Source of the DNA: a virus
Length of the DNA stretch: 64,000 bases
Direction: 5' to 3' (one strand)
Virus record (IMG/VR): IMGVR_UViG_3300022699_000217
Coordinates: 30,754 to 94,753 of that record
Shown here piece by piece: positions 16,372-56,269 of the stretch. The position numbers and the translations under genes were made by a program. The notes beneath the pieces were generated by a model. That model had not been told where the DNA came from. It worked only from the letters and a program-made list of their open reading frames with translations, and made no database searches. Positions within the stretch are counted from its first letter, which is position 1. Every line of letters begins with the position of its first letter.

Positions 16372-17580
16372 ATGAACAAGTCACAACTGAAGGCCCTGGA
16401 TGATTTTATAAACAGAGATGAGATCACCGCGTTGGAAAACGCGCGGAAGCGCTTGGCTGCTGGGCGCGCCTCTTTGGAAGCCCGGTTCTTGGAGCGAGAG
16501 AAGGAGATCCGAGGGCTGCTCGTATCGGCCTTGTCCGGCACCCACCCGCTGCTCCTTGGCCCCCCGGGGACCGGCAAGTCGGCGCTCGTCAACGCCTTCG
16601 CCGAGCTGCTCGGCGCTGGCACGTTCTCGCTCCTGCTAACCAAGTACACCACCCCCGAGGAGGTGTTCGGCCCTGTGGACATCCAGGCGATGAAGAATGG
16701 GAGCTATCGTCGTCGCGTTAACGGGCGTGCCTGGGATAGCGAGGTCGTGTTCATGGACGAGATCTTCAAGGCGTCCAGCTCGATTCTCAACTCGCTGCTC
16801 ACGCTCATGCAGGAGCGTGTCGCCGACAACGATGGCCGCGTGTCCGTGCCGCTTGAGGTGCTGGTCGGGGCGTCCAACGAGTACCCGGCGGACAGCTCGC
16901 TCGATGCGTTGTTCGACCGCTTCTCGTGCAAGTATTGGGTCGACTACATCGGGCAGGCCCAAAACATGCGGTCGCTCCTGCTTGCCGGCGGCGCGGGGAG
17001 CACGACCGTGACGTTGGAGCCCAACGATCTTGCCGCGCTCCGGGATGCCGTCAACGCCGTGCCGTTCGGGCCGCGTGAGGCCGAGCTGCTCCTGGGCGTG
17101 AAAGCTGCCGTCGAGGACGCCGGGTTCTATCCGAGTGATCGAACCTGGGTCAAATCGATTGCGCTGCTACGTGCAAGCGCCGTGCTCGAGGGGCGCGACA
17201 CCATCGCAACCAACGACTTCCGCATGCTCGCGGATGTGCTTTGGAATAAGCACGATGATCGCCCCAAGCTGATGGAGGTCATCGGGAACGCGGCCGACCC
17301 CTACGGTAGCCGCGCGGAAGCCATTATCGACGGCATCAAGCTTGCTCTTCGCGAGATGCCGGACTTTCAAATCGTCGAGTCTGGGCAGATGACCAAGGTC
17401 AAAGCTCAGGAGGTGCTCGTCGGCGTCAACAAGAAGCTGATGAAGGAAGTGGATAAGCTGACCCGGCTCGAGAATGAAGCCGCAGATCATCCGGACGTGC
17501 AAGCGCTCCGCGAGAAGGCGAAAGCCGCGATGAAAACATTCGACGAGTTCAACGACAAGCTGCTTTGGTTCAGAGGGTAG
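16372..17580 (+). CDS. MoxR-family AAA+ ATPase
   Basis: A 402-residue RavA/MoxR-type ATPase. Walker A is GPPGTGKS (63-70), Walker B VVFMDE (125-130), sensor 1 GASNE (166-170), and 'LFDRF' (180-184) is the likely arginine-finger region. The segment 'YTTPEEVFGPVDIQAMKNG' is the MoxR signature between them. MoxR proteins act with VWA-domain partners as chaperones that mature or remodel protein complexes, and a VWA gene follows nine bases downstream. The substrate here is unknown. Confidence 0.9.
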   Translation: MNKSQLKALDDFINRDEITALENARKRLAAGRASLEARFLEREKEIRGLLVSALSGTHPLLLGPPGTGKSALVNAFAELLGAGTFSLLLTKYTTPEEVFGPVDIQAMKNGSYRRRVNGRAWDSEVVFMDEIFKASSSILNSLLTLMQERVADNDGRVSVPLEVLVGASNEYPADSSLDALFDRFSCKYWVDYIGQAQNMRSLLLAGGAGSTTVTLEPNDLAALRDAVNAVPFGPREAELLLGVKAAVEDAGFYPSDRTWVKSIALLRASAVLEGRDTIATNDFRMLADVLWNKHDDRPKLMEVIGNAADPYGSRAEAIIDGIKLALREMPDFQIVESGQMTKVKAQEVLVGVNKKLMKEVDKLTRLENEAADHPDVQALREKAKAAMKTFDEFNDKLLWFRG

Positions 17581-17589
17581 GAGGAAACG

Positions 17590-19047
17590 ATGCCACTATA
17601 CGATGTGAGCGACTACGAAAAAAATCAGTGGCGCTATCAGCGCCGCACGAGCGACGCCCACGCCCACGTCGTCAACGCGGGTGAGCGTCGGTACAAGGGG
17701 TTCGACCGCTTCAGCGAGGAGGTGTTCCACAAGTTCATCTCGCCGACGCCGAGGCCGGTCGAGCACCCCGATCCCGGGCAAGAGATCTTCCAGCGATTGC
17801 ACAGTGCGATGGACGCCGTCCCCGAGGTACAAGACCTCCGGGAGCGGTGCATCCATGACGAGGACACCTCCGCGCAGGCAACAAACGCTATTATCCAGGA
17901 GCTGCTCAGCAAGACGGACGCCCCAAGCGAGCAGGTCCCGAGCAGCGAGGATGACCTGGAGGCGCTCCGTGCGATGGAAAGCTTCCTGCGGCGGCGCGAG
18001 GAAGCCAACGCCCCGCAGGAGACCATCGATAAGATCCGCGAGGAGATCGAGCGTCTTTCGATGCAAGCGGCGGAGCACGCCCATCGCGCCAAGCACATCG
18101 CCGAAGACATGGACGACACCAATATCCGAGCGGCCATTCGTGCCGGCGCGAAAGCCGCCAACGAAGCCATCGATGCCGAGGCGAATGCATTCGACGCGTT
18201 CCCAGGCGATTTGTCGCACAGTGGCAAGAAGCTGCGGCGGGCGGCCTCGGCTAGCATCGCCGATGTTTTGAAAAACAACGCCCGCCTCGCGGAGATCATC
18301 AAACGCGCCGGTCGGTTGCGTCGCATCGCCCTCGACGAACAGCGCAAAAAGCCCCGTCGGGGCGTCGACGAATACTGCGGCATTGAGCGTGGAGCAGATC
18401 TTGAGCGGCTCGTGCCATCTGAATGGGTAACAGCAGACGACCCCGACTTGGATGTGTTGTTCTACCGCAGCATGAACGAGCGCTCGTTGGCGCAGTTCGA
18501 GATCACCGCACGGCAGAAGGAGCAGCAAGGACCTATCGTGTTCCTGCTCGATAGCTCCGGTTCCATGCGGTACAACCAAGCGGATGCGTGGGCGGCAGCG
18601 GTGTGCATGGCGTTCATGCAGGTCGCTATCCTGCAGAAGCGCTCGTTTGCCATCGTTCACTTTGGCAGCGGGGTTCTTCGAACGGACGTGTTCCCCAAAG
18701 GCGAGGCGGTTGATCATGCGAAGATCGCAGACGCGGTTTCGTTCTTCGCCTCCGATGGCGGAACCAACTTCATGGACACCATCGACGAAGCGTCCAAGAT
18801 AATAGAGCAAGAAGGCTTCAAAAAAGCAGACATCGTGATGTGTACAGACGGGCAAGCATACATCTCCGATGAGTGGCTTGGGCGGTTCCTGGAACAGAAG
18901 AAGGAGCGTGACTTTTCGATGTATAGCATCCTGGTCGGGCCGGAGGTGTCCTCGTCTGTAAACGAACGCTTCTCGGATGAGACCGTCCACCTCAGGGAGA
19001 TGCTCGACGGCGATGAGGCCATGCATTCCTTCTTCCGGAAGGTCTGA
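17590..19047 (+). CDS. VWA-domain protein, partner of the MoxR ATPase
   Basis: A 485-residue protein whose C-terminal 170 residues form a von Willebrand factor A domain with a complete MIDAS: D321-S323-S325 ('LLDSSGSM'), T392 ('GGTNF') and D420 ('CTDGQA'). Residues 60-250 are helical and charged. ViaA/CoxE/CobT-like proteins of this layout pair with MoxR ATPases. AGGAGG precedes the ATG and the gene lies in one operon with the ATPase. Metal-dependent binding of a target is expected from the family. Confidence 0.88.
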   Translation: MPLYDVSDYEKNQWRYQRRTSDAHAHVVNAGERRYKGFDRFSEEVFHKFISPTPRPVEHPDPGQEIFQRLHSAMDAVPEVQDLRERCIHDEDTSAQATNAIIQELLSKTDAPSEQVPSSEDDLEALRAMESFLRRREEANAPQETIDKIREEIERLSMQAAEHAHRAKHIAEDMDDTNIRAAIRAGAKAANEAIDAEANAFDAFPGDLSHSGKKLRRAASASIADVLKNNARLAEIIKRAGRLRRIALDEQRKKPRRGVDEYCGIERGADLERLVPSEWVTADDPDLDVLFYRSMNERSLAQFEITARQKEQQGPIVFLLDSSGSMRYNQADAWAAAVCMAFMQVAILQKRSFAIVHFGSGVLRTDVFPKGEAVDHAKIADAVSFFASDGGTNFMDTIDEASKIIEQEGFKKADIVMCTDGQAYISDEWLGRFLEQKKERDFSMYSILVGPEVSSSVNERFSDETVHLREMLDGDEAMHSFFRKV

Positions 19048-33146: not shown

Positions 33147-33349
33147 AACCAACCGACCATCACCTAGTGACCCCTGCCCCGTGTTCACGGTGCGGACAGA
33201 TGTGCGGCCTCCAGCAAAGCCGCGACGATCTCAGCGAGCCGTTCATGTTCACCGTTTTCTGTCCAGAGTGCGCTACCGAGGGACCGGCTCGGCGGGAAAT
33301 CGCGGACGCGGTGTGCGCCTGGAACGAGGTGCAACATGCCGCCCGTTGA
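33143..33349 (+). CDS. Lar-like zinc-ribbon protein
   Basis: A 68-residue protein with 'CSRCGQMC', 'CPEC' and a C-terminal 'ADAVCAWNEVQ', the pattern of phage Lar-type (restriction-alleviation) proteins: two metal-binding pairs and a closing AWN motif. Lar counteracts type I restriction in lambdoid phages. The match is by pattern only. Confidence 0.5.
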   Translation: MKPTDHHLVTPAPCSRCGQMCGLQQSRDDLSEPFMFTVFCPECATEGPARREIADAVCAWNEVQHAAR

Positions 33350-34274
33350 TGCCGCCCAGCGGTTGCTCATGTGGTACGGCCGCAATTATGATCGCAGGAA
33401 GCTACCATGGCGAGTCCATGGTGAATCCGTGACCCGCATCGCACTCGTGGAGGGCCTGCTCGCACAGACCAGGGCGGGTGCGGTCGCGGATCATTATTGG
33501 CACGTGTTCGCGGGCATCGAGTACCCGGAGGATTGGCTTGCGTTGAGCATCGATGAGCGGCTGAAACGTGTTTCGCCACTCGGGCTACCCAAGCTCAAGG
33601 AAGCGGCGGTGACGGGCATTGCCCTTGGCATCCAGCACAGCGGCGCTTCTCGGCTGGCTGCGGAGCTAACCAAAGCCAAGGGGATTGGTCCGTACACCTC
33701 GTCCATGGTCGCGCTGCTGCACGGAGAAGATGCCACCCCCGTGGATTGCAACATTGAGCGCGTCGCAACGCGGTTCCTCTGTGATGACGATGCCGATGCG
33801 ACCGCTTGGTCCAGTGCCATCGTCAACGCAGCGAGGCGGGAGCAGTCAACGACCGGCCATCCACCAGCTTACGAAACTATCTGCGCCGTGATGGATGTTG
33901 GGGCGCGCATCTGTACACCGACCACCCGCGATTGTCACCGGTGCCCGCTACGGCATTCGTGCGAGACGTTTCGACTCTTGGGTGCTCAATGCATTTTGCC
34001 GTTTCCCGATGGAGAGGATTTCGCGGCCTACAAAACAGCGCGGATTTCTGAAACACCTCTGATCGAAATCGGCATTAAGAGAACCGAGTCAAGCGACCCC
34101 AACATGGAGCGATACGCCGAGGAGATCGAGGGGATGCTTTCTGTTTACGAACGAACCGAGCCGTATAAGATCGCCCGCTTAGTGATTGGCTATTTAGCCT
34201 CGCAGCTTGCCGACGAGCGGCTCTGGTGCCGGGTTTCGCCGCCGGGCGCCACCGGCGTAACCGTTTGGCGATAG
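33336..34274 (+). CDS. MutY-like HhH-GPD DNA glycosylase with 4Fe-4S cluster
   Basis: A 312-residue base-excision enzyme. The helix-hairpin-helix is at 112-121 ('TKAKGIGPYT'), the catalytic Asp at 137 ('PVDCNIERV'), a Glu at 39 in 'LVEGLLAQTRAG' equals the MutY-group acid, and Cys 193, 200, 203 and 209 give the exact C-x6-C-x2-C-x5-C cluster of EndoIII/MutY. Residue 120 is Tyr where bifunctional EndoIII has Lys, so it should be a monofunctional glycosylase. Phage glycosylases of this superfamily also occur in base-hypermodification pathways. The C-terminal 90 residues are unassigned. Confidence 0.85.
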   Translation: MPPVDAAQRLLMWYGRNYDRRKLPWRVHGESVTRIALVEGLLAQTRAGAVADHYWHVFAGIEYPEDWLALSIDERLKRVSPLGLPKLKEAAVTGIALGIQHSGASRLAAELTKAKGIGPYTSSMVALLHGEDATPVDCNIERVATRFLCDDDADATAWSSAIVNAARREQSTTGHPPAYETICAVMDVGARICTPTTRDCHRCPLRHSCETFRLLGAQCILPFPDGEDFAAYKTARISETPLIEIGIKRTESSDPNMERYAEEIEGMLSVYERTEPYKIARLVIGYLASQLADERLWCRVSPPGATGVTVWR

Positions 34275-44518: not shown

Positions 44519-45209
44519 TGCAGCGATGAAACAATGGCAGCTCAGGGTTCGGGAGCTGTCGGAACGGATTATGAAGTTCGAGCAGGATTATTGCGCGGTC
44601 GCAACGGAGTTCCGCGTACAGCTCCCCGAGCCGGGCACGGACGCGGCGCGGCTGATGATCGATGCGCGGAACGCGCGCCGCCGATGCGCGGAGCTGGAGA
44701 CCGAGAACCTGAAGCTGCTCGCGGAGATCGACGAGTGGAAGGAAGCCAGCGGACTGGAGTGCGGTGGCGACCCGGACGGCGTTACCCCCAAGCAGGCGCG
44801 TGACCATTGGGAGAACGTCGAGCGCATCGCACAGCAACGGGACGACGCGGTGAACAGCTACATCAACTGCCGCCAGGACCTCGACTGTTGCAAGGAGCTG
44901 CTTGTGAGAAAGGACAAGCGGTTTGCGCCCTTCTCGTTCCCATGGCTGGCCGAAGGCGAGGTCGCGACGGTGGCTGACATCGTCAGCGCGTACCTCCAGG
45001 CGTTTGACTTCGACGGGCTTTATAACGATGACTGCGGGTGCTCGCTGGATGATCTGGCGCCGTGCGGGGCGATCTGCGACACGTGCTCGCCGGGCAAGCA
45101 GGTCAAGGCGCCGCCCTCCACGGGATGGGATTATCTCATCGTGCCGGCCAGCGAGGTCGCGCGGTACGAGGCGGGAGAGGAGAAGGGCGATGCGGAAGAG
45201 CAAGATTGA
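44511..45209 (+). CDS. Hypothetical coiled-coil protein
   Basis: A 232-residue protein: N-terminal coiled coil ('RRRCAELETENLKLLAEIDE'), then a Cys-rich motif 'NDDCGCSLDDLAPCGAICDT' similar to a motif that I recall from other phage proteins. It probably binds metal there. The start of DUF5131 overlaps its last codons. Unknown role. Confidence 0.5.
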   Translation: MNDAAMKQWQLRVRELSERIMKFEQDYCAVATEFRVQLPEPGTDAARLMIDARNARRRCAELETENLKLLAEIDEWKEASGLECGGDPDGVTPKQARDHWENVERIAQQRDDAVNSYINCRQDLDCCKELLVRKDKRFAPFSFPWLAEGEVATVADIVSAYLQAFDFDGLYNDDCGCSLDDLAPCGAICDTCSPGKQVKAPPSTGWDYLIVPASEVARYEAGEEKGDAEEQD

Positions 45210-46161
45210 GTGGACCGACGCAACGTGGAACCCGGTGACGGGCTGCACCAAAGTGTCGGCTGGATGCGCGCATTGTTACGCGCTACGGCAGGCAACCCGG
45301 ATGCACGCCATGGGGGTCGCGGGGTATGAGAACGGGTTCGCCCCGACGTGCCACCCGAGCCGCCTCGCAGCGCCAGCGTCCTGGGTCAAGCCGCGGAAGG
45401 TGTTCGTTTGCAGCATGGGCGATCTATTCCACGACGACGTGCCGTTCGATTTCATCGAGCGCGTCTTCAAGGTGATGCTGGAAACCCCGAAGCACACCTA
45501 CCAAATATTGACCAAGCGCCCGCAACGAGCGCACCTGTTTCTTGACAAGCATCTGCGGAGCGACGTGTTCAAACACTGGCCGTTTCCGAACGTTTGGGTC
45601 GGCGTGACCGCTGAGAACCAAGAAACGGCGAACGAGCGGATCCCGTGGCTGATGCGCATCCCAGCGAAGGTGCGGTTCGTCAGCGCCGAGCCGCTCCTCG
45701 GCCCCATCGCCATGACGGAGGCGATGTATGGGCAAGACCCACCGGGCATGAACGGTTTCGGATTCACGGACGGCCACGGGCACGAGGCCATGATCCACTG
45801 GGTGATCGCCGGTGGCGAGAGCGGCCCGGGCGCGCGCCCAATGCACCCCGCGTGGGCAACCGGCCTGCGGGATCAATGCATCGCAGCAGAGGTGCCGTTC
45901 CTTTTCAAGCAGTGGGGCGAATGGTGCGAATATCAGCAGTGGTTTCTTTTCCCGAACGTGCACAAATTAACGCGAAGAATCGTGCTGATGGATGGGCGCT
46001 GCGGCAAGTCCCCGGAGGATCTGGGCTACCACGGCCCGGATGGCGCGGAGTGGAATGCGCTTTGCCCAAGCGTGATGGTCCGCGTGGGCAAAAAGAACGC
46101 CGGACGCCGGCTCGACCGTGAGCTATGGACCGAGTACCCCAAGCAGGAGGTGGAGAGATGA
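45190..46161 (+). CDS. Phage Gp37/Gp68 (DUF5131) family protein, radical-SAM-like
   Basis: A 323-residue protein of the phage gp37/gp68 (DUF5131) family: 'IEWTDATWNPVTGCTKVSAG' with Cys 19, 26 and 29 (C-x6-C-x2-C), then 'VFVCSMGDLFHDDVP', 'YQILTKRP' and 'WVGVTAENQETANERIPWL', the family's hallmark strings, and 'WVIAGGESGPGARPM'. The family is thought to be a TIM barrel with an iron-sulfur site, but its chemistry is unknown to me. It begins inside the coiled-coil gene. Confidence 0.8.
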   Translation: MRKSKIEWTDATWNPVTGCTKVSAGCAHCYALRQATRMHAMGVAGYENGFAPTCHPSRLAAPASWVKPRKVFVCSMGDLFHDDVPFDFIERVFKVMLETPKHTYQILTKRPQRAHLFLDKHLRSDVFKHWPFPNVWVGVTAENQETANERIPWLMRIPAKVRFVSAEPLLGPIAMTEAMYGQDPPGMNGFGFTDGHGHEAMIHWVIAGGESGPGARPMHPAWATGLRDQCIAAEVPFLFKQWGEWCEYQQWFLFPNVHKLTRRIVLMDGRCGKSPEDLGYHGPDGAEWNALCPSVMVRVGKKNAGRRLDRELWTEYPKQEVER

Positions 46162-47909: not shown

Positions 47910-48142
47910 CCGAGCCGCAAAAACACGGCAACCGAGCGTTCGCCGGCGCATACCGCAAAGGGCGTGAGGCGTACATCGCTGGGGTTCTGGTGGACGAGTG
48001 CCCATACAGCGATCACCGCAAAATCAGTGGAAAGCTCACCTGGTCGCGCGCGTTTCGAACAGCCTGGCGCGACGGGTGGCAGGATGCACAGGCAGAGGAT
48101 GCAAAGCTTTCGCGTGACACGCGACAAGGATGGTCAAAATGA
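47906..48142 (+). CDS. Ribosome-modulation-factor-like protein
   Basis: A 78-residue basic protein. 'AFAGAYRKGREAYIAGVLVDE' followed by CPYSD, then 'AFRTAWRDGWQDA' matches the RMF pattern (G-x-x-A-x-x-x-G, CPY, then W-x-x-GW-x-A). RMF dimerises ribosomes into hibernating particles in enteric bacteria. A phage copy could slow or bias translation. Overlaps both neighbours (ATGA). Confidence 0.6.
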   Translation: MTEPQKHGNRAFAGAYRKGREAYIAGVLVDECPYSDHRKISGKLTWSRAFRTAWRDGWQDAQAEDAKLSRDTRQGWSK

Positions 48143-48774
48143 AAGAGCAAAAAACAACATGCGTCCCAGGGACCACAATCCCTATGCTCCCCGGTCTCGA
48201 AAGCTTCTTGATGCCGATTGACGAGGTGCACCCCGACCCAGCCAACCCGCGCATCCTGAAGAACCTGGATGTCCTAAAGGCCAGCTTGCAACGGTTCGGG
48301 CTCCGCAGGCCCATCATCGCCAACCAGCGGGACAAGCAGATCGAAGCCGGCCATCAGACCCGGCAAGCCCTCCTGGAGCTCGGGGCAACGCATGTCCCGG
48401 TCATGTGGGCTGACGATGACCGCATCCAGGCAACCGCCTTCAACATCGCCGACAACCGAACCGCCGAGGTGGTCTCGGACTGGGACGAGGAAGCCTTGGC
48501 GCGACTGTTGAAGGACCTAAGCGTCGACGGCGCGGTGGATGGCATCGGCTTTGATGAGAAGCAGATGACAGCGCTCATCGATTCGTTCGCCGACGGGCAG
48601 GATTTGGATGACGAGGCGCTCCCCGAGATCGACCTGGGGGAGCCCGATGATCTGTGCGGGCGCGTCATCATCATCTACGAGGGCGAGGAGGAGTTCCGCA
48701 AGGTCCAGGACCTGCTCGGGGTCAAGCTGGGCAACAAGATAAGCTGGTCCATTGGGGAGATCGTTGATGGATGA
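48139..48774 (+). CDS. ParB-like nuclease-domain protein, copy 1
   Basis: A 211-residue protein with a ParB/Srx N-terminal domain: 'PIDEVHPDPANPRILKNLDV', 'GLRRPIIANQ', 'IEAGHQTRQALLELGATHVP' and 'DRIQATAFNIADNRTAE'. This core is nearly repeated in the protein at 52808. The C-terminal 60 residues ('CGRVIIIYEGEEEFRKVQDL') are a different small alpha/beta domain. Phage ParB-like domains bind NTPs and are often next to base-modification enzymes; radical SAM genes follow immediately. ATG overlaps the RMF-like stop; ATG 48130 is an alternative. Confidence 0.82.
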   Translation: MKEQKTTCVPGTTIPMLPGLESFLMPIDEVHPDPANPRILKNLDVLKASLQRFGLRRPIIANQRDKQIEAGHQTRQALLELGATHVPVMWADDDRIQATAFNIADNRTAEVVSDWDEEALARLLKDLSVDGAVDGIGFDEKQMTALIDSFADGQDLDDEALPEIDLGEPDDLCGRVIIIYEGEEEFRKVQDLLGVKLGNKISWSIGEIVDG

Positions 48775-50071
48775 CAAAGCAAAGAACCTGAGCCTAACGT
48801 ACCAGAGCCCCCGCTGGTCGAACGAGATCTCGGATTGTGCGCTCCCGATGACCATCGACCAGTATTCGAATTGTTCGTATAAATGCGCCTACTGCTTCTC
48901 GCAGTACCGCCGCGGCATCGGCGGGGGGAAGGACGCCTACAAGGCGGGCAAGATCAAGGCGATCAACGTGGACAAGGTCAAGCGCCTGTTCCGTGGCGAG
49001 ATCACCAACGAGAACCACGCCGCGAGCGGCCTCTGGCAGTTCAACCAGTTCATCAAGGAGCGCAAGATGGTGCAGTGGGGTGGCCTGAGCGACCCGTTCT
49101 GCCTGTACGAGCGCAAGTACGGCCTCGGCCTCGAGCTGATGCGGTTTTTCCGGGAGATCGAGTATCAGGTTTCGTTCAGCACGAAGGGGACCTGGTGGTT
49201 GGATGACCCGCGATATGTGGAGTGCTTCGAGGGCAACCCCCACTTCCACGTGAAAATCAGCGTCATCACCGGCGACCCGGCGAAGGCTAAGGCCATCGAG
49301 CGCGGCGGCGTGCCGTCCCCGACCGAGCGGCTGCGCGCCATCGAGCGGCTCGCCAAGATGCTTCCCGGAGACAAGCCCGTCGTGCTGCGGTTGCGGCCGT
49401 TCATCATCGGGGTGTCCAACCCGAGCTACGAGCAGTTAATCCGGGACGCCGCGAACGCTGGAGCCTCGGCGGTGAGCACCGAGTTCTTCTGCGTGGAGAC
49501 TCGCTCCCACAACCAGGCGGCAGATAACTACAAGATCATCAGCGAGCAGACCGGCTTCGACGTGTACGAGTTCTATCGGAAGCACAGTCGCGGGGGCGGG
49601 TACATGCGGCTTAATCGCGCCATCAAAGGCCGGTACGTGGATACGATGCAAGCGCTGTGCAAGGAGCTGGGGCTGGACTTCTACGTGAGCGACCCCCACT
49701 ACAAGGAGCGCAGCTCCAGCGGGTGTTGCTGCGGCGTGCCAGAATCGTGGAACTACTCGCGCGGGCAGCTTTTGGAGGCGCTCTTGATCGCCAAGGAGCG
49801 GGGCGAGGTGCACTGGGCCGACATCGCGCAGCATCTTGGCTACGCGGACACGTTCAGCTTCCGTCGCGCGCAGGGGTTCAACACGAACAGCGAGGACGTC
49901 CGCGCCAAGTTCTTCAACGCAACCATGAAGGATTACCTGCGGCACGGCTGGAACACGACCAAGAGCATCGCGTCCCCGTACAAGATGTTCGGCGGCGTGC
50001 TGAAGCCGGTCGAGCGCGACGGCAACGGCGACATCGTTTACAAATTTGACCACGACCGGGCGAGCAAATGA
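48767..50071 (+). CDS. SPL-like radical SAM enzyme
   Basis: A 434-residue radical SAM protein with C36-x3-C40-x2-C43 ('CSYKCAYCF'), which holds the 4Fe-4S cluster that splits SAM. 'YQVSFSTKGTW', 'FHVKISVITGDPAKAKAIER' and 'LRLRPFIIGV' are like the spore-photoproduct-lyase/Rv2578c group, whose members act on DNA. The C-terminal part has an added Cys cluster ('GCCCG') and a helical domain. Start ATG after GGGGAG, overlapping ParB copy 1 by eight bases. The reaction is unknown. Confidence 0.8.
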   Translation: MDDKAKNLSLTYQSPRWSNEISDCALPMTIDQYSNCSYKCAYCFSQYRRGIGGGKDAYKAGKIKAINVDKVKRLFRGEITNENHAASGLWQFNQFIKERKMVQWGGLSDPFCLYERKYGLGLELMRFFREIEYQVSFSTKGTWWLDDPRYVECFEGNPHFHVKISVITGDPAKAKAIERGGVPSPTERLRAIERLAKMLPGDKPVVLRLRPFIIGVSNPSYEQLIRDAANAGASAVSTEFFCVETRSHNQAADNYKIISEQTGFDVYEFYRKHSRGGGYMRLNRAIKGRYVDTMQALCKELGLDFYVSDPHYKERSSSGCCCGVPESWNYSRGQLLEALLIAKERGEVHWADIAQHLGYADTFSFRRAQGFNTNSEDVRAKFFNATMKDYLRHGWNTTKSIASPYKMFGGVLKPVERDGNGDIVYKFDHDRASK

Positions 50072-51354
50072 CACGAGCGGACTTCGTCTTCTTCTATCAC
50101 CCGCACACCTACGAGACGGTGCCCTCGGCGCAGATTGGGCTTGGGATGCTGGCCATCGCCACCCATGCGAAAGCCTTGGGCGCCGCCGTGCGGGTGATCA
50201 ACGCGCAGGCTGAAACGGTCGAATCGGCCATCCAGATGATTCCCCCGTGCGAGCACCTCTGCTTCTACGGGTGCCTCCTGGATGCCGACATCATCAATCG
50301 CATCGCCCACGTGGCCAAAGCCCGCGACCTAGCGCGCACCGTATTGGTCGGTGGCCCACTTGGCCAGTCCCCGCAGTACCTCTCCGAAGATCACATCGAC
50401 GTGGTCGTGGACGGGCCAGGCGAGGACTACGTGGGGAACCTGGTGCGTCAGCGTGTAACGGCCCCGCGCAACGTGTTCGGCACCCTCCACCTCCACCGCG
50501 CGCCCGCCCTGTCCGACATCAGCGGCTACCCGTTCCCGGACCGCTCCCTCGTCGAGGGCTCGCTTGGGGGGAAGATCTTCATCGGGTCCGGTGACGACGA
50601 GCAGTCCACGACGATCCTGATGTCGCGGGGCTGCCGCTACCGCTGTGCCTTCTGTAGCTCGGGCGCCAGCGCGTGCGCGCCGCTGGACTACGATCTCGAC
50701 CGCATCGAGCGCGAGCTGGACCACTGCCTCTCGCTCGGCATCCGGAACGTCCGCGTCTCCGACGACAACATCATGAACGACCCCCACCGGCTCGAGCGCA
50801 TCTGCGCCCTGTTCCGCGACCGGGGGATCCGCTGGCGCGGCTCGCTCCGCGTGAAGCCCAGCGCGATTTGGATGTACCGCCTCATGGTGGAGAGCGGCTG
50901 CCAGGAGCTGTCGTTCGGCATCGAGTCCGGCGACCAGCACGTCCTAGCGGTCTTGCGCAAGGGCACCAAGGTCGCGGACAACACCGCCGCCGTGCGGAAC
51001 GCGAAGGCCGCGGGCGTGCCCATCGTGCGGTCCCTGATGATGATGGGGACCCCCGGTGAGACCCCCGCGACACTCGCCCTGAACAAGCAGTGGGTGGCCG
51101 AGGCCGCCCCCGACATCGTCAGCCTGAAGATCTTCGTCCCGTACCCCGGCACGAGCATCTTCGAGGAGCCCGCCCGGTACCGCTGCGAGCTGCTCGCCAC
51201 CGGCGACTACAACAACAGCTCGTACCGCCCGGACGACAGCCTCCCCGCTGCGAACATCCGCCTGCCCGGCGTGATGACCGAGCACGATCTGACCGCCCAC
51301 TTTCTGGACATGCGTGCATGGCTGGAACAACGAGGAGTTGAGAACCGTGGATAA
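50068..51354 (+). CDS. Cobalamin-type radical SAM enzyme
   Basis: A 428-residue protein. Residues 1-130 form a Rossmann-like B12-binding-type domain ('IGLGMLAIATHAKALGAAVR', 'TVLVGGPLGQSPQYL', 'DVVVDGPGED') but without the DxHxxG His motif, so base-off or no cobalamin ligand. The radical SAM core follows with C189-x3-C193-x2-C196 ('SRGCRYRCAFCSS') and 'ELSFGIESGDQHVLAVLRKG'. B12 radical SAM proteins methylate or rearrange unreactive carbons. ATGA overlap with the upstream radical SAM gene. Confidence 0.85.
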   Translation: MTRADFVFFYHPHTYETVPSAQIGLGMLAIATHAKALGAAVRVINAQAETVESAIQMIPPCEHLCFYGCLLDADIINRIAHVAKARDLARTVLVGGPLGQSPQYLSEDHIDVVVDGPGEDYVGNLVRQRVTAPRNVFGTLHLHRAPALSDISGYPFPDRSLVEGSLGGKIFIGSGDDEQSTTILMSRGCRYRCAFCSSGASACAPLDYDLDRIERELDHCLSLGIRNVRVSDDNIMNDPHRLERICALFRDRGIRWRGSLRVKPSAIWMYRLMVESGCQELSFGIESGDQHVLAVLRKGTKVADNTAAVRNAKAAGVPIVRSLMMMGTPGETPATLALNKQWVAEAAPDIVSLKIFVPYPGTSIFEEPARYRCELLATGDYNNSSYRPDDSLPAANIRLPGVMTEHDLTAHFLDMRAWLEQRGVENRG

Positions 51355-52102
51355 CCATCCCCCCGTCGTCATCCTAAGCCGGGAGCGCGCCACCATCGGG
51401 ACCACGTGGCGCCTGTTCCCCGAGGCCACCCTGATCGTTCACGAGTCCGAGCTGGACGCGTACCGCGCCGCTGGGCACACCGGCACGATCTGGACGCACA
51501 CCAAGGACCGCAGCCCCGCAATCCGCAACGTCATCCTGGACCGCATCGGTGCCGGGAACGAGGTGGTGATCATGGACGACGACATCAAAGCCGTCGGCCA
51601 CTTCGAGACCCTCGCCCCCGGGCGCTACAAGGCGGCCAAGCTCCCCGGCCCGGCCTTCCTCGACGAGATCGCCAAGGGGTTCGCCCTCGCCCGCAAGCAC
51701 GGCTACCACCTCTTTGGCGTCGCCCCGACCACCAACTGTATGAACTACAACCCCCAGCGGACCCTCAAGACCGGCGTCTTCATCAACGGCCCGCTCATGT
51801 GCATCCGCGTCCGCGACGATCTCCGCTTCGACGAGGCCCTCCCGCTCAAGTGCGACTACGAGTTCACCGCGCGCACCATGGCCGCGAAAGCGGGCGTCTT
51901 CCGCATGGACCATCTCTGGCAGGACAACGACTTCGACTCGATGCCCGGCGGCCGCGCGTGCTATAAACGACCGGAGGACGCCGAGCTCTCGTTCCACGTC
52001 CTCCTGGACCGATACCCCCGCTACTTCCGGCCCAACCCCCGGCGGCAGTGGGAGGTCATCCTGAGCGACCCGGCGACCCGGAAACGCAAGGCCGCCCGTT
52101 AA
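51347..52102 (+). CDS. GT-A glycosyltransferase resembling TET-associated type
   Basis: A 251-residue protein with the order of a compact GT-A fold: 'VVILSRERATIGTTW', 'SPAIRNVILDR', then 'EVVIMDDDIKAVGHF' with a DDD at 77-79 as the metal/sugar-nucleotide site, 'CDYEFTAR' and 'DHLWQDNDFDSMPGG'. This pattern recalls the TET-associated glycosyltransferases (TAGT) of phages that sugar-modify oxidised pyrimidines. No TET/JBP oxygenase is seen here. The GTG start is chosen because GAGGAG lies upstream and overlap is eight bases. Confidence 0.65.
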   Translation: MDNHPPVVILSRERATIGTTWRLFPEATLIVHESELDAYRAAGHTGTIWTHTKDRSPAIRNVILDRIGAGNEVVIMDDDIKAVGHFETLAPGRYKAAKLPGPAFLDEIAKGFALARKHGYHLFGVAPTTNCMNYNPQRTLKTGVFINGPLMCIRVRDDLRFDEALPLKCDYEFTARTMAAKAGVFRMDHLWQDNDFDSMPGGRACYKRPEDAELSFHVLLDRYPRYFRPNPRRQWEVILSDPATRKRKAAR

Positions 52103-52143
52103 CCTCGGCGCCCCGCGCCCCGACGCAGTGAAGGAGCCCGACC

Positions 52144-52701
52144 ATGACCGACACCCCAACGCCCGAATCGGCCCCCGAAGCAAAGCCGAAGCGCAAGCGC
52201 AAACCCCCGAAGCCTATGGCGGAACGGCGCAAGTCCACCCCGATTATTTCCGTCGAGAAGTACAACGAGATGTTCGCCGCCTACCTCGAGCGCCAGAGCG
52301 CGGCTCACGTGGCAAAAACCTGTGAGGTTGCGCAGCGTACCGCCCGGCGCTACATCGACCAGGGCGACCCCAAGCGGAAGCTCATGGCCCTCAAGGACCG
52401 ACTCGCCAAGGTGAACGACCTCGCCCGGCAGCGTGCCGACTACGATCTAGTCAAGGCCCGCGCCGAGTTCCAGAAGGCCGCCCGCGCCGCGTTCATGAAG
52501 ACCGCGCAGGCCATCCAGCTCGTCGACGCCAAGGACCTGACCGCCGACAAGATCCCGGAGCACCTGAACAAGCTGCTCACGGTCATCGAGCGGACCTTCG
52601 GGGAGGCCGAGCACAGCCACGAGGTGCGGGGCAAGTTCTCCAACTGGACGCTGGCGGAGATTCGGGCGTTCTTGGATGAGGGCATCGACCCCGATAAGTG
52701 A
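52144..52701 (+). CDS. Putative small terminase subunit
   Basis: A 185-residue protein: basic Pro/Lys-rich N terminus, a helix-turn-helix ('AAHVAKTCEVAQRTARRYID'), then long helices ('RAEFQKAARAAFMKTAQAIQ') suited to ring assembly and an acidic tail. Size, HTH and a location upstream of terL fit a small terminase, which recognises the packaging site, although three genes lie between. AAGGAG precedes the ATG. Confidence 0.55.
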   Translation: MTDTPTPESAPEAKPKRKRKPPKPMAERRKSTPIISVEKYNEMFAAYLERQSAAHVAKTCEVAQRTARRYIDQGDPKRKLMALKDRLAKVNDLARQRADYDLVKARAEFQKAARAAFMKTAQAIQLVDAKDLTADKIPEHLNKLLTVIERTFGEAEHSHEVRGKFSNWTLAEIRAFLDEGIDPDK

Positions 52702-52807
52702 AAAAGGATGCAAGATCCATGAATAGAGTGCCGCAAAAGCCGGGGCTACAATCCACCGGGCAGCATAAATAACCAAAGAGGCCCCACTCGGGCCGTGCGA
52801 GGCGCAG
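52702..52807 (+). other. Spacer before second ParB-like gene
   Basis: 106 bases without a supported gene. A 17-codon frame from 52720 is too weak to call. GGCCC/GGGCC forms a small hairpin (around 52780-52793) before the ParB gene. A TACAAT string near 52746 has no clear -35. Confidence 0.35.
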
Positions 52808-53428
52808 ATGAAGAAGACGAAGAAGACCCCCACCCCCCTCCGCGTGCCAGGCACCGAGGTGGCTTTGCTCCCCGGGCTCAAGCCCCTCCTGGTCCCCATC
52901 GATGACGTGCACCCGGACCCTGCGAACCCCCGCGTGTTGAAGAACCTGGAAGCGCTCAAGGGCAGCCTGCGCCGGTTCGGCCTGCGTCGCCCGATCATCG
53001 CCAACGAGCGCGACGGGCAGATCGAGGCCGGGCACCAAACCCGGCAAGCCCTCGTGGAGCTCGGGGCGACCCACATCCCGGTGATCTGGGCCGACGATGA
53101 CCGCATCCAAGCGACGGCGTTCAACATCGCGGACAACAAGACCGCCGAGGTGGTCGCCGACTGGGATGAGGATGCCTTGACCCGCCTGCTCACCGACATC
53201 GCGCAAGCAGGCGATCTGGATGGTATGGGCTTCGACGACAAGGAGGCCGCCCGGCTGCTTGCGGGCTTGGAGGAGCCGCCTGAGGACGCCGCGTCGGAGG
53301 AGGATGCCTCCGAGGCCCCGCAGGAGATGTACCGCATCATGATCGAATGCGATGACGAGGCGCATCAGGCGGAACTGCTTGCCCGGTTTATGGAGGAGGG
53401 CATCTCATGCCAGTCGTTGATCTTATAG
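52808..53428 (+). CDS. ParB-like nuclease-domain protein, copy 2
   Basis: A 206-residue paralogue of the protein at 48139: 'PIDDVHPDPANPRVLKNLEA', 'GLRRPIIANERD', 'IEAGHQTRQALVELGATHIP' and 'DRIQATAFNIADNKTAE' are almost the same. The C-terminal 50 residues ('MYRIMIECDDEAHQAELLAR') differ from copy 1. The two copies bracket the radical SAM/glycosyltransferase genes. The next gene overlaps its end by 22 bases. Confidence 0.82.
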   Translation: MKKTKKTPTPLRVPGTEVALLPGLKPLLVPIDDVHPDPANPRVLKNLEALKGSLRRFGLRRPIIANERDGQIEAGHQTRQALVELGATHIPVIWADDDRIQATAFNIADNKTAEVVADWDEDALTRLLTDIAQAGDLDGMGFDDKEAARLLAGLEEPPEDAASEEDASEAPQEMYRIMIECDDEAHQAELLARFMEEGISCQSLIL

Positions 53429-54582
53429 CCGAGGTGCCGCTGTACGACAGCGTGCGGGTGCGGCAACTCTCGGGGATGTTCGACGTGCCGCTGGGGCAGA
53501 AGCTGCGGCGCGAGTGGCACGCCGAGTTGCCGCTGGACGAGGCCCCGTGGTCGGTCGGCTTGATTGTCGGTCCGTCTGGATCGGGTAAGTCGCTGGTCGC
53601 GCGGGAGCTGTTCGGCCCGCTGGTCGATCACAAGCTCGAGTGGGCGCCGGACAAGGCGGTCGTCGACTGCTTCAACCGGAACCTGTCCGTCCGTGAAATC
53701 ACCGACGCGTGCTCGGCGGTGGGGTTCAACACCATCCCAAGCTGGCTCAAGCCCTTCCGGGTGCTCAGCAACGGCGAGCAGTTCCGCGTGGACCTGGCCC
53801 GACGCTTGCTCGAGGTGCCCCCGCCTGTCGTCGTCGATGAGTTCACCTCGGTCGTGGACCGGCAGGTCGCCAAGATCGCCTCCCACGCGGTGCAGAAGTA
53901 TGCCCGCAGCGGCGACACGCGGTTCGTCGCCATCAGTTGCCACGATGACATCATCGATTGGCTCCAGCCCGATTGGATCTTCCGCCCTGATGAGGGCTCT
54001 TTCCACAGGAGGCGGCTTCGGCGTCGACCAGAAATCGAATGCACCATCCAGCAGGTTCACCATCGCACGTGGAAAATGTTCGCTCCGTTTCACTATATGA
54101 GCGCTGAGATGAACAAGTCGGCCCGGTGCTTCTGCCTGTTCATCGATGGGAAGCCCGTGTCCTTCGTGGCGTTCCTGGCCAGCCCGGTCTCGCACGGCAA
54201 GAACAAGGGCACCGCCATCCGGCGCGTCACCCGGGCCGTTACGCTGCCCGACTGGCAGGGGCTTGGGCTAACGTTCGTTTTGTCTGAGAACATCGCGGCG
54301 ATGTACAAGGCCCTCGGGCACCGCGTGCGGCACAACCCCGCTCATCCGGGCTTCGTCCGGGCGTTCCAGCGCAGCCCCCGGTGGAAGTCCATCGTCAAGT
54401 ACGGCACGTTCGCCACGCGCAATCTGACCGGCACGCTGGCCAGCAAGAAGGGCGCCATGGGCGGCCGCGCGAATGCGATCTTCGAATGGGTCGGCCCCGC
54501 GTTCCCCGATGCCGCCGTGGCCAAAGCCGTTCTCGATGGGTCACCGGGCGCGGAGCACAACCTGGCGATAGGAGCCCCATGA
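53407..54582 (+). CDS. ABC-ATPase fused to GNAT acetyltransferase
   Basis: A 391-residue fusion. The ATPase (about 45-200) has Walker A GPSGSGKS (55-62), an ABC signature LSNGEQ (120-125), Walker B VVVDE (141-145) and H179 ('SCHDD'). From about 210 a GNAT-like domain follows, with 'FCLFIDGKPVSFVAFLASP' and motif A 'VTLPDWQGLGLTFVLSE' (Q284-G-L-G). No membrane segments, so not a transporter. The GNAT half would use acetyl-CoA or a relative; phage Mu Mom is a distant GNAT that modifies DNA adenine. The role here is inferred from context. Confidence 0.75.
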   Translation: MPVVDLIAEVPLYDSVRVRQLSGMFDVPLGQKLRREWHAELPLDEAPWSVGLIVGPSGSGKSLVARELFGPLVDHKLEWAPDKAVVDCFNRNLSVREITDACSAVGFNTIPSWLKPFRVLSNGEQFRVDLARRLLEVPPPVVVDEFTSVVDRQVAKIASHAVQKYARSGDTRFVAISCHDDIIDWLQPDWIFRPDEGSFHRRRLRRRPEIECTIQQVHHRTWKMFAPFHYMSAEMNKSARCFCLFIDGKPVSFVAFLASPVSHGKNKGTAIRRVTRAVTLPDWQGLGLTFVLSENIAAMYKALGHRVRHNPAHPGFVRAFQRSPRWKSIVKYGTFATRNLTGTLASKKGAMGGRANAIFEWVGPAFPDAAVAKAVLDGSPGAEHNLAIGAP

Positions 54583-54686
54583 CCGAACGATGTACGAGAT
54601 CGCCGGTTTCCCACACCGGAGAGAACCGAACAAACAACGACGCCGGCGTGGGCCGAATAAACGACGGGAGCGCGGTGGCAAGATGA
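54579..54686 (+). CDS. Tiny 35-residue ORF between ABC-GNAT and terL
   Basis: ATG overlaps the upstream stop (ATGA) and its own TGA overlaps the terL ATG (ATGA). AGGAG lies five bases upstream, a better site than terL itself has. The peptide (MTERCTRSPVSHTGENRTNN..) is polar and has no motif. It may be a real small protein or a leader that couples translation into terL. Confidence 0.45.
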   Translation: MTERCTRSPVSHTGENRTNNDAGVGRINDGSAVAR

Positions 54687-56269
54687 GCGTCGGCCGTACC
54701 CATCCGGATTATCGCCCGCCCACGCACCACCTCTACCGGGTGAACACGAAGCGGCTGATCATCCCCGGCAACGAGGAGGCCACGCGCCTGGAGATGCTTC
54801 GCGTCGCCGAGGCCGCGCAGGAGTACCGCATCAAGATGGCGCGGCAGGATTTCGGCGCCTTCATGGAATACTGCTTCTACGATGAGGTCTCGCGCCGCCC
54901 GTTCGCGCAGCAGTGGTTCCACGATGAGTGGAGCGAGGCATGGGACACGCACAACCGCGTCATCATCATCGCTCCCCGTGATCATGGAAAAACGAGCCAG
55001 ATTGTCGGGCGGGTCCTGTTCGAGCTGGGGCGCAACCCCAACCTCCGCATCAAGATCGCCTGTGCGGCAGACGGGCGCGCGAAGGAGCGGCTCTTCGAGG
55101 TCGTGCAGCATATCGAGCTCAACCCGCGGCTCCAGGAAGTCTTCCCGCATCTGCGGCAGGACAAGGACGCGGAATGGTCCAAGCACAAGATCGTGGTCAA
55201 GCGCACCGTCCCGCATCGGGATGCCTCGGTCGAGGCGCTGGGCATCACCGCGACGGCCACGGGTGGGCGCTGCGACCTGCTCATCGCGGACGACGTGGTG
55301 GACCGGCGGAATGCGCTCTCGTTCCCCAAGCTGCGGCAGCAGATCAAGCAGGCGTGGAAGTCGGACTGGACGAACCTGCTCGAGCCGGAATCGCGGATCT
55401 GGTACATCTGTACCCTGTGGCACAAGGACGACCTGAGCCACGAGCTGGTCACGAACAAGGCGTACAAGACGTTGTTCTACGCCGTGCCGCCCGACTTTGG
55501 TGCGCTCTGGCCGGGCAAGTGGCCCGAGCAGGAGCTGCGCAAACGGCACGAGGAGATCGGGTCCATCGAGTTCAACCGGGGTTTCCGCAACCAGGCGGTC
55601 GACGAGGACAGCTCGATCATCCGGGATGGCTGGCTGGCGTTCAGCAACTTGGCCACGGACGCGCGATTCACCGACCGGCTTAACGAGCTGGTGTTCTTCA
55701 CGAGCTACGATACCGCGCGGGCGACCGGCGAAGGCAACGACTTCTCGGCGTGCACCGTGTTCGCGGTGGATCCGGAAGAGCGCCGCGTGTTCATCGTGGA
55801 CGCGTGGCATGGGAAGCTGACGGTCAAGCAGCAAGCTGAGCAGGTGTGGAAGGAGTACCAGAAGTTCCTGCCGTTCCGCATCCTCATCGAGAAGGTGGGC
55901 CAGGCGGTGCTCGACGAGTGGGTGCTGAACGACCACCCCGAGCTGGCATCGATCATCGAGGTGACGACCCCCAAAATATCTAAGAGCCAACGGCTGGTCG
56001 CCGTGACGCCGCTCCTGGAGCGCGGCGATGTGATCTTTAGCGACCACCTCAACCCCGACAATGGGTCGTGGACGCCGGGGCGCGAGGCGCTGGTGCACGA
56101 GTTGTTGGATTTCCCGTTTGGCAAAAACGACGATTTGGTAGACTCCTTCAGCCAGGGCCTTTCTGCGGCACGCCGATACTTTTTGGACGAGTGGGCGACG
56201 GAGCGATCTGGTGCTGATCTGGATGTGCGCATTGGTGCACGGGGGGAGGACGATGGCTACCTGTTCTGA
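54683..56269 (+). CDS. terL: Terminase large subunit
   Basis: A 528-residue packaging motor. Walker A-like APRDHGKT (97-104), Walker B 'CDLLIADDVVD' (about 197-205), and the RNase H-fold nuclease begins with 'FTSYDTARATGEGNDFSA', where the Asp binds metal. The C-terminal 'PFGKNDDLVDSFSQGL' is the usual last acidic motif. It cuts concatemers and drives DNA into the prohead. An upstream in-frame ATG (54590) would add 31 residues, but the ATGA junction at 54683 fits better. Confidence 0.92.
   Translation: MSVGRTHPDYRPPTHHLYRVNTKRLIIPGNEEATRLEMLRVAEAAQEYRIKMARQDFGAFMEYCFYDEVSRRPFAQQWFHDEWSEAWDTHNRVIIIAPRDHGKTSQIVGRVLFELGRNPNLRIKIACAADGRAKERLFEVVQHIELNPRLQEVFPHLRQDKDAEWSKHKIVVKRTVPHRDASVEALGITATATGGRCDLLIADDVVDRRNALSFPKLRQQIKQAWKSDWTNLLEPESRIWYICTLWHKDDLSHELVTNKAYKTLFYAVPPDFGALWPGKWPEQELRKRHEEIGSIEFNRGFRNQAVDEDSSIIRDGWLAFSNLATDARFTDRLNELVFFTSYDTARATGEGNDFSACTVFAVDPEERRVFIVDAWHGKLTVKQQAEQVWKEYQKFLPFRILIEKVGQAVLDEWVLNDHPELASIIEVTTPKISKSQRLVAVTPLLERGDVIFSDHLNPDNGSWTPGREALVHELLDFPFGKNDDLVDSFSQGLSAARRYFLDEWATERSGADLDVRIGARGEDDGYLF

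Follow-up and report, generated by a model that had tools for sequence, protein, structure and literature searches.

A 64 kb stretch of viral DNA (bases 30754-94753 of the 94,753-base IMG/VR record IMGVR_UViG_3300022699_000217; this whole stretch is called the window below, and positions are numbered along it) raises the question of how a phage might start the hypermodification of its DNA with a radical S-adenosylmethionine (SAM) enzyme. To our knowledge, 5-hydroxymethyl pyrimidines arise in phage DNA in only two ways: a folate-dependent hydroxymethylase modifies the nucleotide, or a TET/JBP enzyme, which needs O2, modifies the DNA. Four genes of the window (48130-52102, + strand) encode a ParB protein (ParB1), a radical SAM enzyme resembling spore photoproduct lyase (SPL-rSAM), a B12-type radical SAM enzyme and a glycosyltransferase of the TAGT family, and from sequence comparisons we consider it likely that they form a DNA-base hypermodification cassette, in which SPL-rSAM would hydroxylate thymine without O2 and the TAGT would glycosylate the product. 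We also lean towards the broader view that the SPL-rSAM family is an O2-independent counterpart of TET/JBP and a common entry point to hypermodification in the phages of anaerobes, its product being glycosylated in this phage with the B12-type enzyme helping. The gene set appears to recur in viruses of oxygen-free habitats, where thymine is probably oxidized by the radical SAM enzyme and then given a sugar. If this is true, the hypermodification of DNA could begin by a novel route, radical SAM entry, with a new DNA-editing chemistry acting on plain thymine; this would explain DNA hypermodification by viruses of anaerobes, and SPL-rSAM would serve as a family marker for finding such phages.

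The SPL-like radical SAM enzyme and its relatives

The SPL-rSAM gene (48767-50071, + strand, ATG start) encodes a protein of 434 aa with the cluster motif CSYKCAYC, an instance of the CX3CX2C pattern that is conserved across the family. Its AlphaFold2 model (pLDDT 93) has spore photoproduct lyase (4fhc) as its best match in the PDB (E-value 1.1e-6, prob 1.00, TMt 0.60); sequence searches of the PDB with SPL and TAGT profiles returned nothing significant, but the fold search did give matches. Four further cysteines (24, 242, 321 and 322) vary little or not at all among the relatives and could hold an auxiliary cluster. The protein lies outside the named NCBIfam families PA0069 and Rv2578c, scoring 40 bits against equivalog cut-offs of 360 and 430 (the best E-value among its relatives is 1.6e-21).

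A motif-pattern search followed by an alignment search yielded 95 SPL-rSAM loci with 41-53 % identity, 75 of them viral and 20 on genome contigs (individual loci and contigs carry L numbers below); these searches succeeded where single-protein queries with SPL-rSAM or the glycosyltransferase found no relatives in phages or viral contigs. Most of the loci come from uncultured phages and prophages of anaerobes. The 20 genome-contig loci are prophage-like regions of Bacteroides, Phocaeicola, Prevotella, Selenomonas, Clostridia, rumen Spirochaetaceae and similar lineages, hosts that are anaerobes in all cases except possibly L125. Among the cultured lysogens with a member of the family are Selenomonas ruminantium S137 (L124), which has SPL-rSAM and the kinase described below, and Bacteroides fragilis S82 (L114), which has an amino acid:DNA transferase as well. 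The family is probably uncharacterized, as judged from databases and the open literature, since no clear member was found among 50,697 phage records. We note that a SAM synthetase gene lies near SPL-rSAM in 15 of the 95 loci (L110-L111, L036, L037 and 11 others), where it possibly provides a private supply of SAM for the enzyme.

Which enzyme supplies the hydroxymethyl group

Searches of the whole 94.8 kb record found no TET/JBP (PF12851), no ThyA-type hydroxymethylase (PF00303), no amino acid:DNA transferase (ADDT) and no 5-methylcytosine (5mC) methyltransferase; ThyX is present and a ThyA-type enzyme was not found. A preliminary description of the window had remarked that no TET or hydroxymethylase was visible in it, and as far as the searches reach this is true of the entire record. 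With no TET in the record, a TET-only reading of this genome was rejected.

Whole-contig searches found the ThyA family in none of 40 SPL contigs, the control with Pseudomonas phage M6 being positive. Among contigs encoding a radical SAM enzyme of the M6 type, those without SPL-rSAM carry the ThyA family in 26 of 28 cases, with TET in one of the remaining two, whereas all five contigs that also encode SPL-rSAM lack it (Fisher p 9e-5), these five being shorter contigs of 19-39 kb. TET was present in each of the 35 contigs without SPL-rSAM that were ascertained through ADDT and tested, and in a local survey it was found in 65 of 78 ADDT loci without SPL-rSAM as against none of the 47 with both SPL-rSAM and ADDT. 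A genome search with the glycosyltransferase or PF20691 missed the TAGT of L018, which is visible to hmmscan, so that negatives of this kind are not absolute, and the TET and hydroxymethylase (DUHMT) tests were therefore repeated with local profiles. Because their presence and absence are complementary across contigs, SPL-rSAM, TET and the ThyA-type hydroxymethylase appear to replace one another, and on these distributions SPL-rSAM most likely stands in for the other two as entry enzyme. The earlier guess that a radical SAM enzyme would have to perform the first step is strengthened accordingly by this complementarity. The occurrence of M6-type radical SAM enzymes together with SPL-rSAM in five loci suggests that their roles differ.

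In one lineage two candidate entry enzymes lie side by side, a TET/JBP gene with its own ParB (L071:6426-7304) being located beside SPL-rSAM, a TAGT and a SPASM-type radical SAM enzyme.

Exchangeable decorating enzymes

The kinase and transferases of phages M6, ViI and phiW-14 act on 5-hydroxymethyl-dU (5-hmdU; PMC6449724), and relatives of these enzymes are common around SPL-rSAM. A 5-hmdU-kinase and/or ADDT is encoded in 54 of the 95 loci and a TAGT in 30, with both in 1 (p 9e-14); the loci are related by descent and the contigs are often fragments, and after clustering at 90 % identity the corresponding numbers among 67 clusters are 37, 23 and 2 (p 2e-8). The profiles behind these counts recognize M6 gp054 (kinase, E-value 4e-18) and M6 gp051 (ADDT, 1e-62), and PF18724 scores above its cut-off in the ADDT of L016. 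Parsimony on the SPL-rSAM tree gives 16 changes of decorator class, of which at least 10 fall on well-supported branches. This near-exclusive distribution, with its repeated switches, points to a constant entry enzyme combined with exchangeable decorators. ParB usually accompanies SPL-rSAM, no other gene family within the 95 loci is as constant as SPL-rSAM itself, and in 46 of the 51 loci where a downstream TerL (large terminase subunit) is seen, it starts within 1.5 kb.

The window's own arrangement is also found elsewhere. Contig L078 has exactly the order ParB-SPL-B12-TAGT (42 % identity for the B12-type enzyme and 40 % for the TAGT), and contig L085 has the order ParB-B12-TAGT-SPL-TerS-TerL, TerS being the small terminase subunit. 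The set thus does co-occur, and the original idea of a hypermodification system gains from this, as it does from the location of SPL-rSAM homologues with ADDT, 5-hmdU-kinase relatives or TAGT. We note that M6 gp054 (L024:16686-17249), annotated as a terminase small subunit, is a P-loop kinase according to the 5-hmdU-kinase-like profile.

The glycosyltransferase and the B12-type radical SAM enzyme

The glycosyltransferase (51347-52102, + strand, GTG start) contains a DDD motif and scores 28.0 bits against the Pfam TAGT family PF20691, for which the cut-off is 27.5, which bears out its proposed resemblance to TET-associated types. Of 26 aligned members of its family 24 match TAGT (best E-value 1e-22), and its AlphaFold2 model (pLDDT 94) matches GT-A/GT2 folds. 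It shares 40 % identity with the L078 enzyme and 38 % with that of L085. The association of TAGTs with TET is not seen in its own record; TET is present in 3 related contigs with a TAGT. Elsewhere, in the streptococcal prophage Javan291 (L019:5357-6708), a ParB annotated as 'DNA modification methylase' is directly followed by a TAGT, and Microbacterium phages such as KaiHaiDragon (L021:3924-6319) encode a ParB, a TAGT-like glycosyltransferase and a UDP-glucose dehydrogenase.

The product of the gene at 50068-51354 (+ strand) matches Pfam Radical_SAM (E-value 7.5e-17), has a weak B12-binding match and is similar to PhpK, HpnJ, HpnR and AprD4. Homologues lie beside SPL-rSAM in L078, L085 (32 % identity) and L086 (29 %), and SPASM-type radical SAM enzymes accompany TAGT in 10 other SPL loci. 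B12-type enzymes 40-48 % identical to that of the window are also encoded in L004, L005 and L006, within large clusters of glycosyltransferase, sulfotransferase and methyltransferase genes near structural genes; these clusters probably serve glycan decoration.

The ParB proteins and the ABC-GNAT module

ParB1 (48130-48774) and a second protein, ParB2 (52808-53428), both encoded on the + strand, have ParB N-terminal domains that match PHROGs (phrog_620; E-value 9e-32 for ParB1 and 8e-37 for ParB2) and fall under the cut-off of Pfam ParB_N. The two are 70 % identical over 151 aa and differ in their C-terminal tails, and each gene overlaps the one that follows it, SPL-rSAM for ParB1 and an ABC-ATPase/GNAT gene (ABC-GNAT) for ParB2. 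The tail of ParB1 has the sequence GRVIIIYEGEEEFRKVQDLLGVKLGNKISWSIGEIVDG. Similar tails, either on ParB proteins or as stand-alone open reading frames of 88-95 aa, overlap SPL-rSAM genes in L103, L061, L049, L050, L064 and L115, which suggests that the ParB1 tail is a candidate adaptor for SPL-rSAM.

The ABC-GNAT protein (53407-54582, + strand; ABC_tran; phrog_11143, E-value 3e-98) had been counted as a member of the hypermodification set, a place that the surveys do not support: the SPL-rSAM, M6-type and ADDT loci tested all lack it, and many phages (Jace, P335, L007-L009, L011) have ParB-ABC-GNAT pairs without SPL-rSAM. ParB2 and ABC-GNAT (52808-54582) are therefore better regarded as a separate module. 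A relationship to Mu Mom was considered and rejected, none being detectable (hmmsearch E-value 0.06; hhalign prob 0.2). In L012, L013 and L014, ABC-GNAT homologues have recurring neighbours of their own and no recognized adjoining ParB or terminase gene, which suggests that the family has another genomic context.

Proposed pathway and alternatives

In the pathway that we propose, ParB1 would load on the phage DNA and pass it to SPL-rSAM through its C-terminal adaptor. The 5'-deoxyadenosyl radical of SPL-rSAM would attack thymine in DNA, removing a hydrogen from its 5-methyl group to give a thymine allylic radical, which would be oxidized, perhaps by the auxiliary cluster, and capture water to form 5-hmdU without O2. 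The complementary gene distributions and two precedents suggest this chemistry: spore photoproduct lyase proceeds through a thymine allylic radical, normally quenched by cysteine (PMC5368176), and BciD is a radical SAM enzyme that hydroxylates one methyl group twice (PMC7242693). The TAGT, to judge by its family, would add a sugar to the hydroxymethyl group, and the B12-type enzyme, like the SPASM-type enzymes found with TAGT elsewhere, would tailor the sugar or the base; this tailoring is the weakest step, since other phages have relatives of the B12-type enzyme in glycan clusters. The modified base would be similar to base J and would shield the phage's DNA from restriction. Where related phages have a kinase and an amino acid:DNA transferase in place of the TAGT, SPL-rSAM would feed these.

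SPL-rSAM might instead be a downstream sculpting enzyme like M6 gp053, with some unrecognized protein as the entry enzyme. The two belong to the same SPL/COG1533-type superfamily, with weak similarity, and gp053 reportedly acts late in its pathway; we nevertheless regard this as unlikely, since five loci hold both kinds of enzyme, SPL-rSAM also occurs with TAGT in the absence of ADDT, where an amino-acid isomerase would have no substrate, and no other gene family is as constant across the 95 loci. The same cassette logic could also be applied to 5mC, giving glycosylated 5-hydroxymethylcytosine: TAGTs take their name from their association with TET enzymes, phage TETs act on 5mC, and a few relatives encode a C5-methyltransferase. 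This seems quite improbable, as such a methyltransferase was found neither in the phage's own record nor in 32 of 35 relatives (3 have one), and the kinase and ADDT versions belong to 5-hmdU chemistry (PMC6449724). Thymine is thus favoured over cytosine, the alternative decorators being thymidine enzymes.

That the B12-type enzyme and the glycosyltransferase decorate a virion or surface glycan, unrelated to DNA, is an idea prompted by the clusters of L004-L006, and we give it little chance: the glycosyltransferase is a TAGT and not one of the types in those clusters, the B12 and TAGT genes adjoin SPL-rSAM and ParB in L078 and L085, and a TAGT directly follows ParB in Javan291. There is a similarly slight prospect that the pathway includes ParB2 and ABC-GNAT, which would then acylate the modified base. 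Their adjacency and the duplicated ParB would fit, as would the GNAT genes found alongside kinase/ADDT in some 26 SPL loci, but those are small stand-alone proteins, and the distribution of ABC-GNAT described above, with its own ParB and away from SPL-rSAM, argues otherwise. It is hardly credible that SPL-rSAM is a DNA-repair (photoproduct) lyase, even though spore photoproduct lyase is its nearest fold, because exchange with TET and DUHMT and linkage to ADDT and TAGT are unexpected for a repair enzyme.

Several observations weigh against the cassette as we interpret it. TET does occur in three of the 40 SPL contigs (L071, L072 and L074, a single lineage with the arrangement ParB-TET-ParB-SPL-TAGT-SPASM radical SAM), and many contigs are incomplete, so that an absent TET or DUHMT is not proof. 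Neither type of decorator is encoded in 12 of the 95 loci, the window's glycosyltransferase clears the TAGT cut-off only narrowly, and the B12-type enzyme, given the context of L004-L006, may act on other glycans. The presumed link to anaerobes comes from the hosts of the relatives.

Gene layout and other genes of the record

The genes for ParB1, SPL-rSAM, the B12-type enzyme, TAGT, a helix-turn-helix (HTH)/TerS-like protein, ParB2, ABC-GNAT and TerL follow one another along 48130-56269, all on the + strand, and overlaps of 4-8 nt join the first four head to tail. The genes named in the preliminary description were verified as open frames in the order given, with their strand, motifs and short overlaps; it had omitted the HTH/TerS-like gene, and the stretch is not a single uniform operon, since a gap of about 105 nt precedes ParB2. 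The omitted gene (52144-52701, + strand, 185 aa) has an HTH-like sequence and weak family matches only, and from its place before TerL it is probably the small terminase subunit, outside the cassette. TerL (54590-56269, + strand; phrog_38, E-value 6e-80), which marks the boundary, has at most 28 % identity to any protein among the matches listed.

Other genes of the record include ThyX, MazG, a Dam-type methylase and a DUF5131 protein. The last (45172-46161) has weak similarity to a radical SAM family and lies near SPL-rSAM here, as it also does in L100 and L102. At 33336-34274 there is a homologue of MutY/EndoIII-type helix-hairpin-helix DNA glycosylases (best PDB match an adenine glycosylase, E-value 5e-14; no Pfam match); mispaired or modified bases are possible substrates of it. 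At 16372-19047 the genes for a MoxR-type AAA ATPase and, after it, a von Willebrand A protein form a pair unusual in phage.

Comparison with known systems

Spore photoproduct lyase, also a radical SAM enzyme, is the closest solved fold to SPL-rSAM; its substrate is thymine in DNA and its intermediate a thymine allylic radical, and the same is predicted for SPL-rSAM. Their identity is only about 18 %, however, and SPL-rSAM has the extra conserved cysteines, an extra C-terminal region and modification-enzyme neighbours in phage. The glycosyltransferase is like the TAGT family (PF20691) in sequence and GT-A fold, although it departs from the usual TAGT in being linked to radical SAM enzymes instead of a TET in this genome. 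The predicted product, an O-glycosylated 5-hydroxymethyluracil, resembles kinetoplastid base J, made by JBP1/2 and JGT, but JBP is O2-dependent, and the TAGT is likened to JGT by its predicted product and not by kinship. Glucosylated 5hmdU had not been reported in phage genomes according to a 2019 paper (PMC6449724).

The 5-NedU pathway of Pseudomonas phage M6 comprises DUHMT, a kinase (gp054), ADDT (gp051), a pyridoxal phosphate (PLP) enzyme (gp052) and a radical SAM enzyme (gp053). It shares with the SPL loci an SPL/COG1533-type radical SAM enzyme, a kinase and ADDT, and five SPL contigs have the M6-type radical SAM enzyme, three of them with its PLP enzyme as well. M6 differs in obtaining 5-hmdU from a ThyA-type hydroxymethylase, and its radical SAM enzyme is of a distinct family with weak similarity to SPL-rSAM. 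Parallels in organization are also seen in the thymidine-hypermodification phages that use TET/JBP, of which Rhodococcus phage Tonitrus, with ParB, TET/JBP, ADDT (aGPT-PPlase2) and a 5-hmU kinase, is an isolated aerobic example (PMC11955845). In these, too, ParB lies beside the entry enzyme and the decorators are exchangeable, with ADDT and kinase shared by relatives of SPL-rSAM; the entry enzyme there is an O2-dependent 2-oxoglutarate dioxygenase, whereas here it is predicted to be a radical SAM enzyme, and the window has a TAGT in place of ADDT and kinase.

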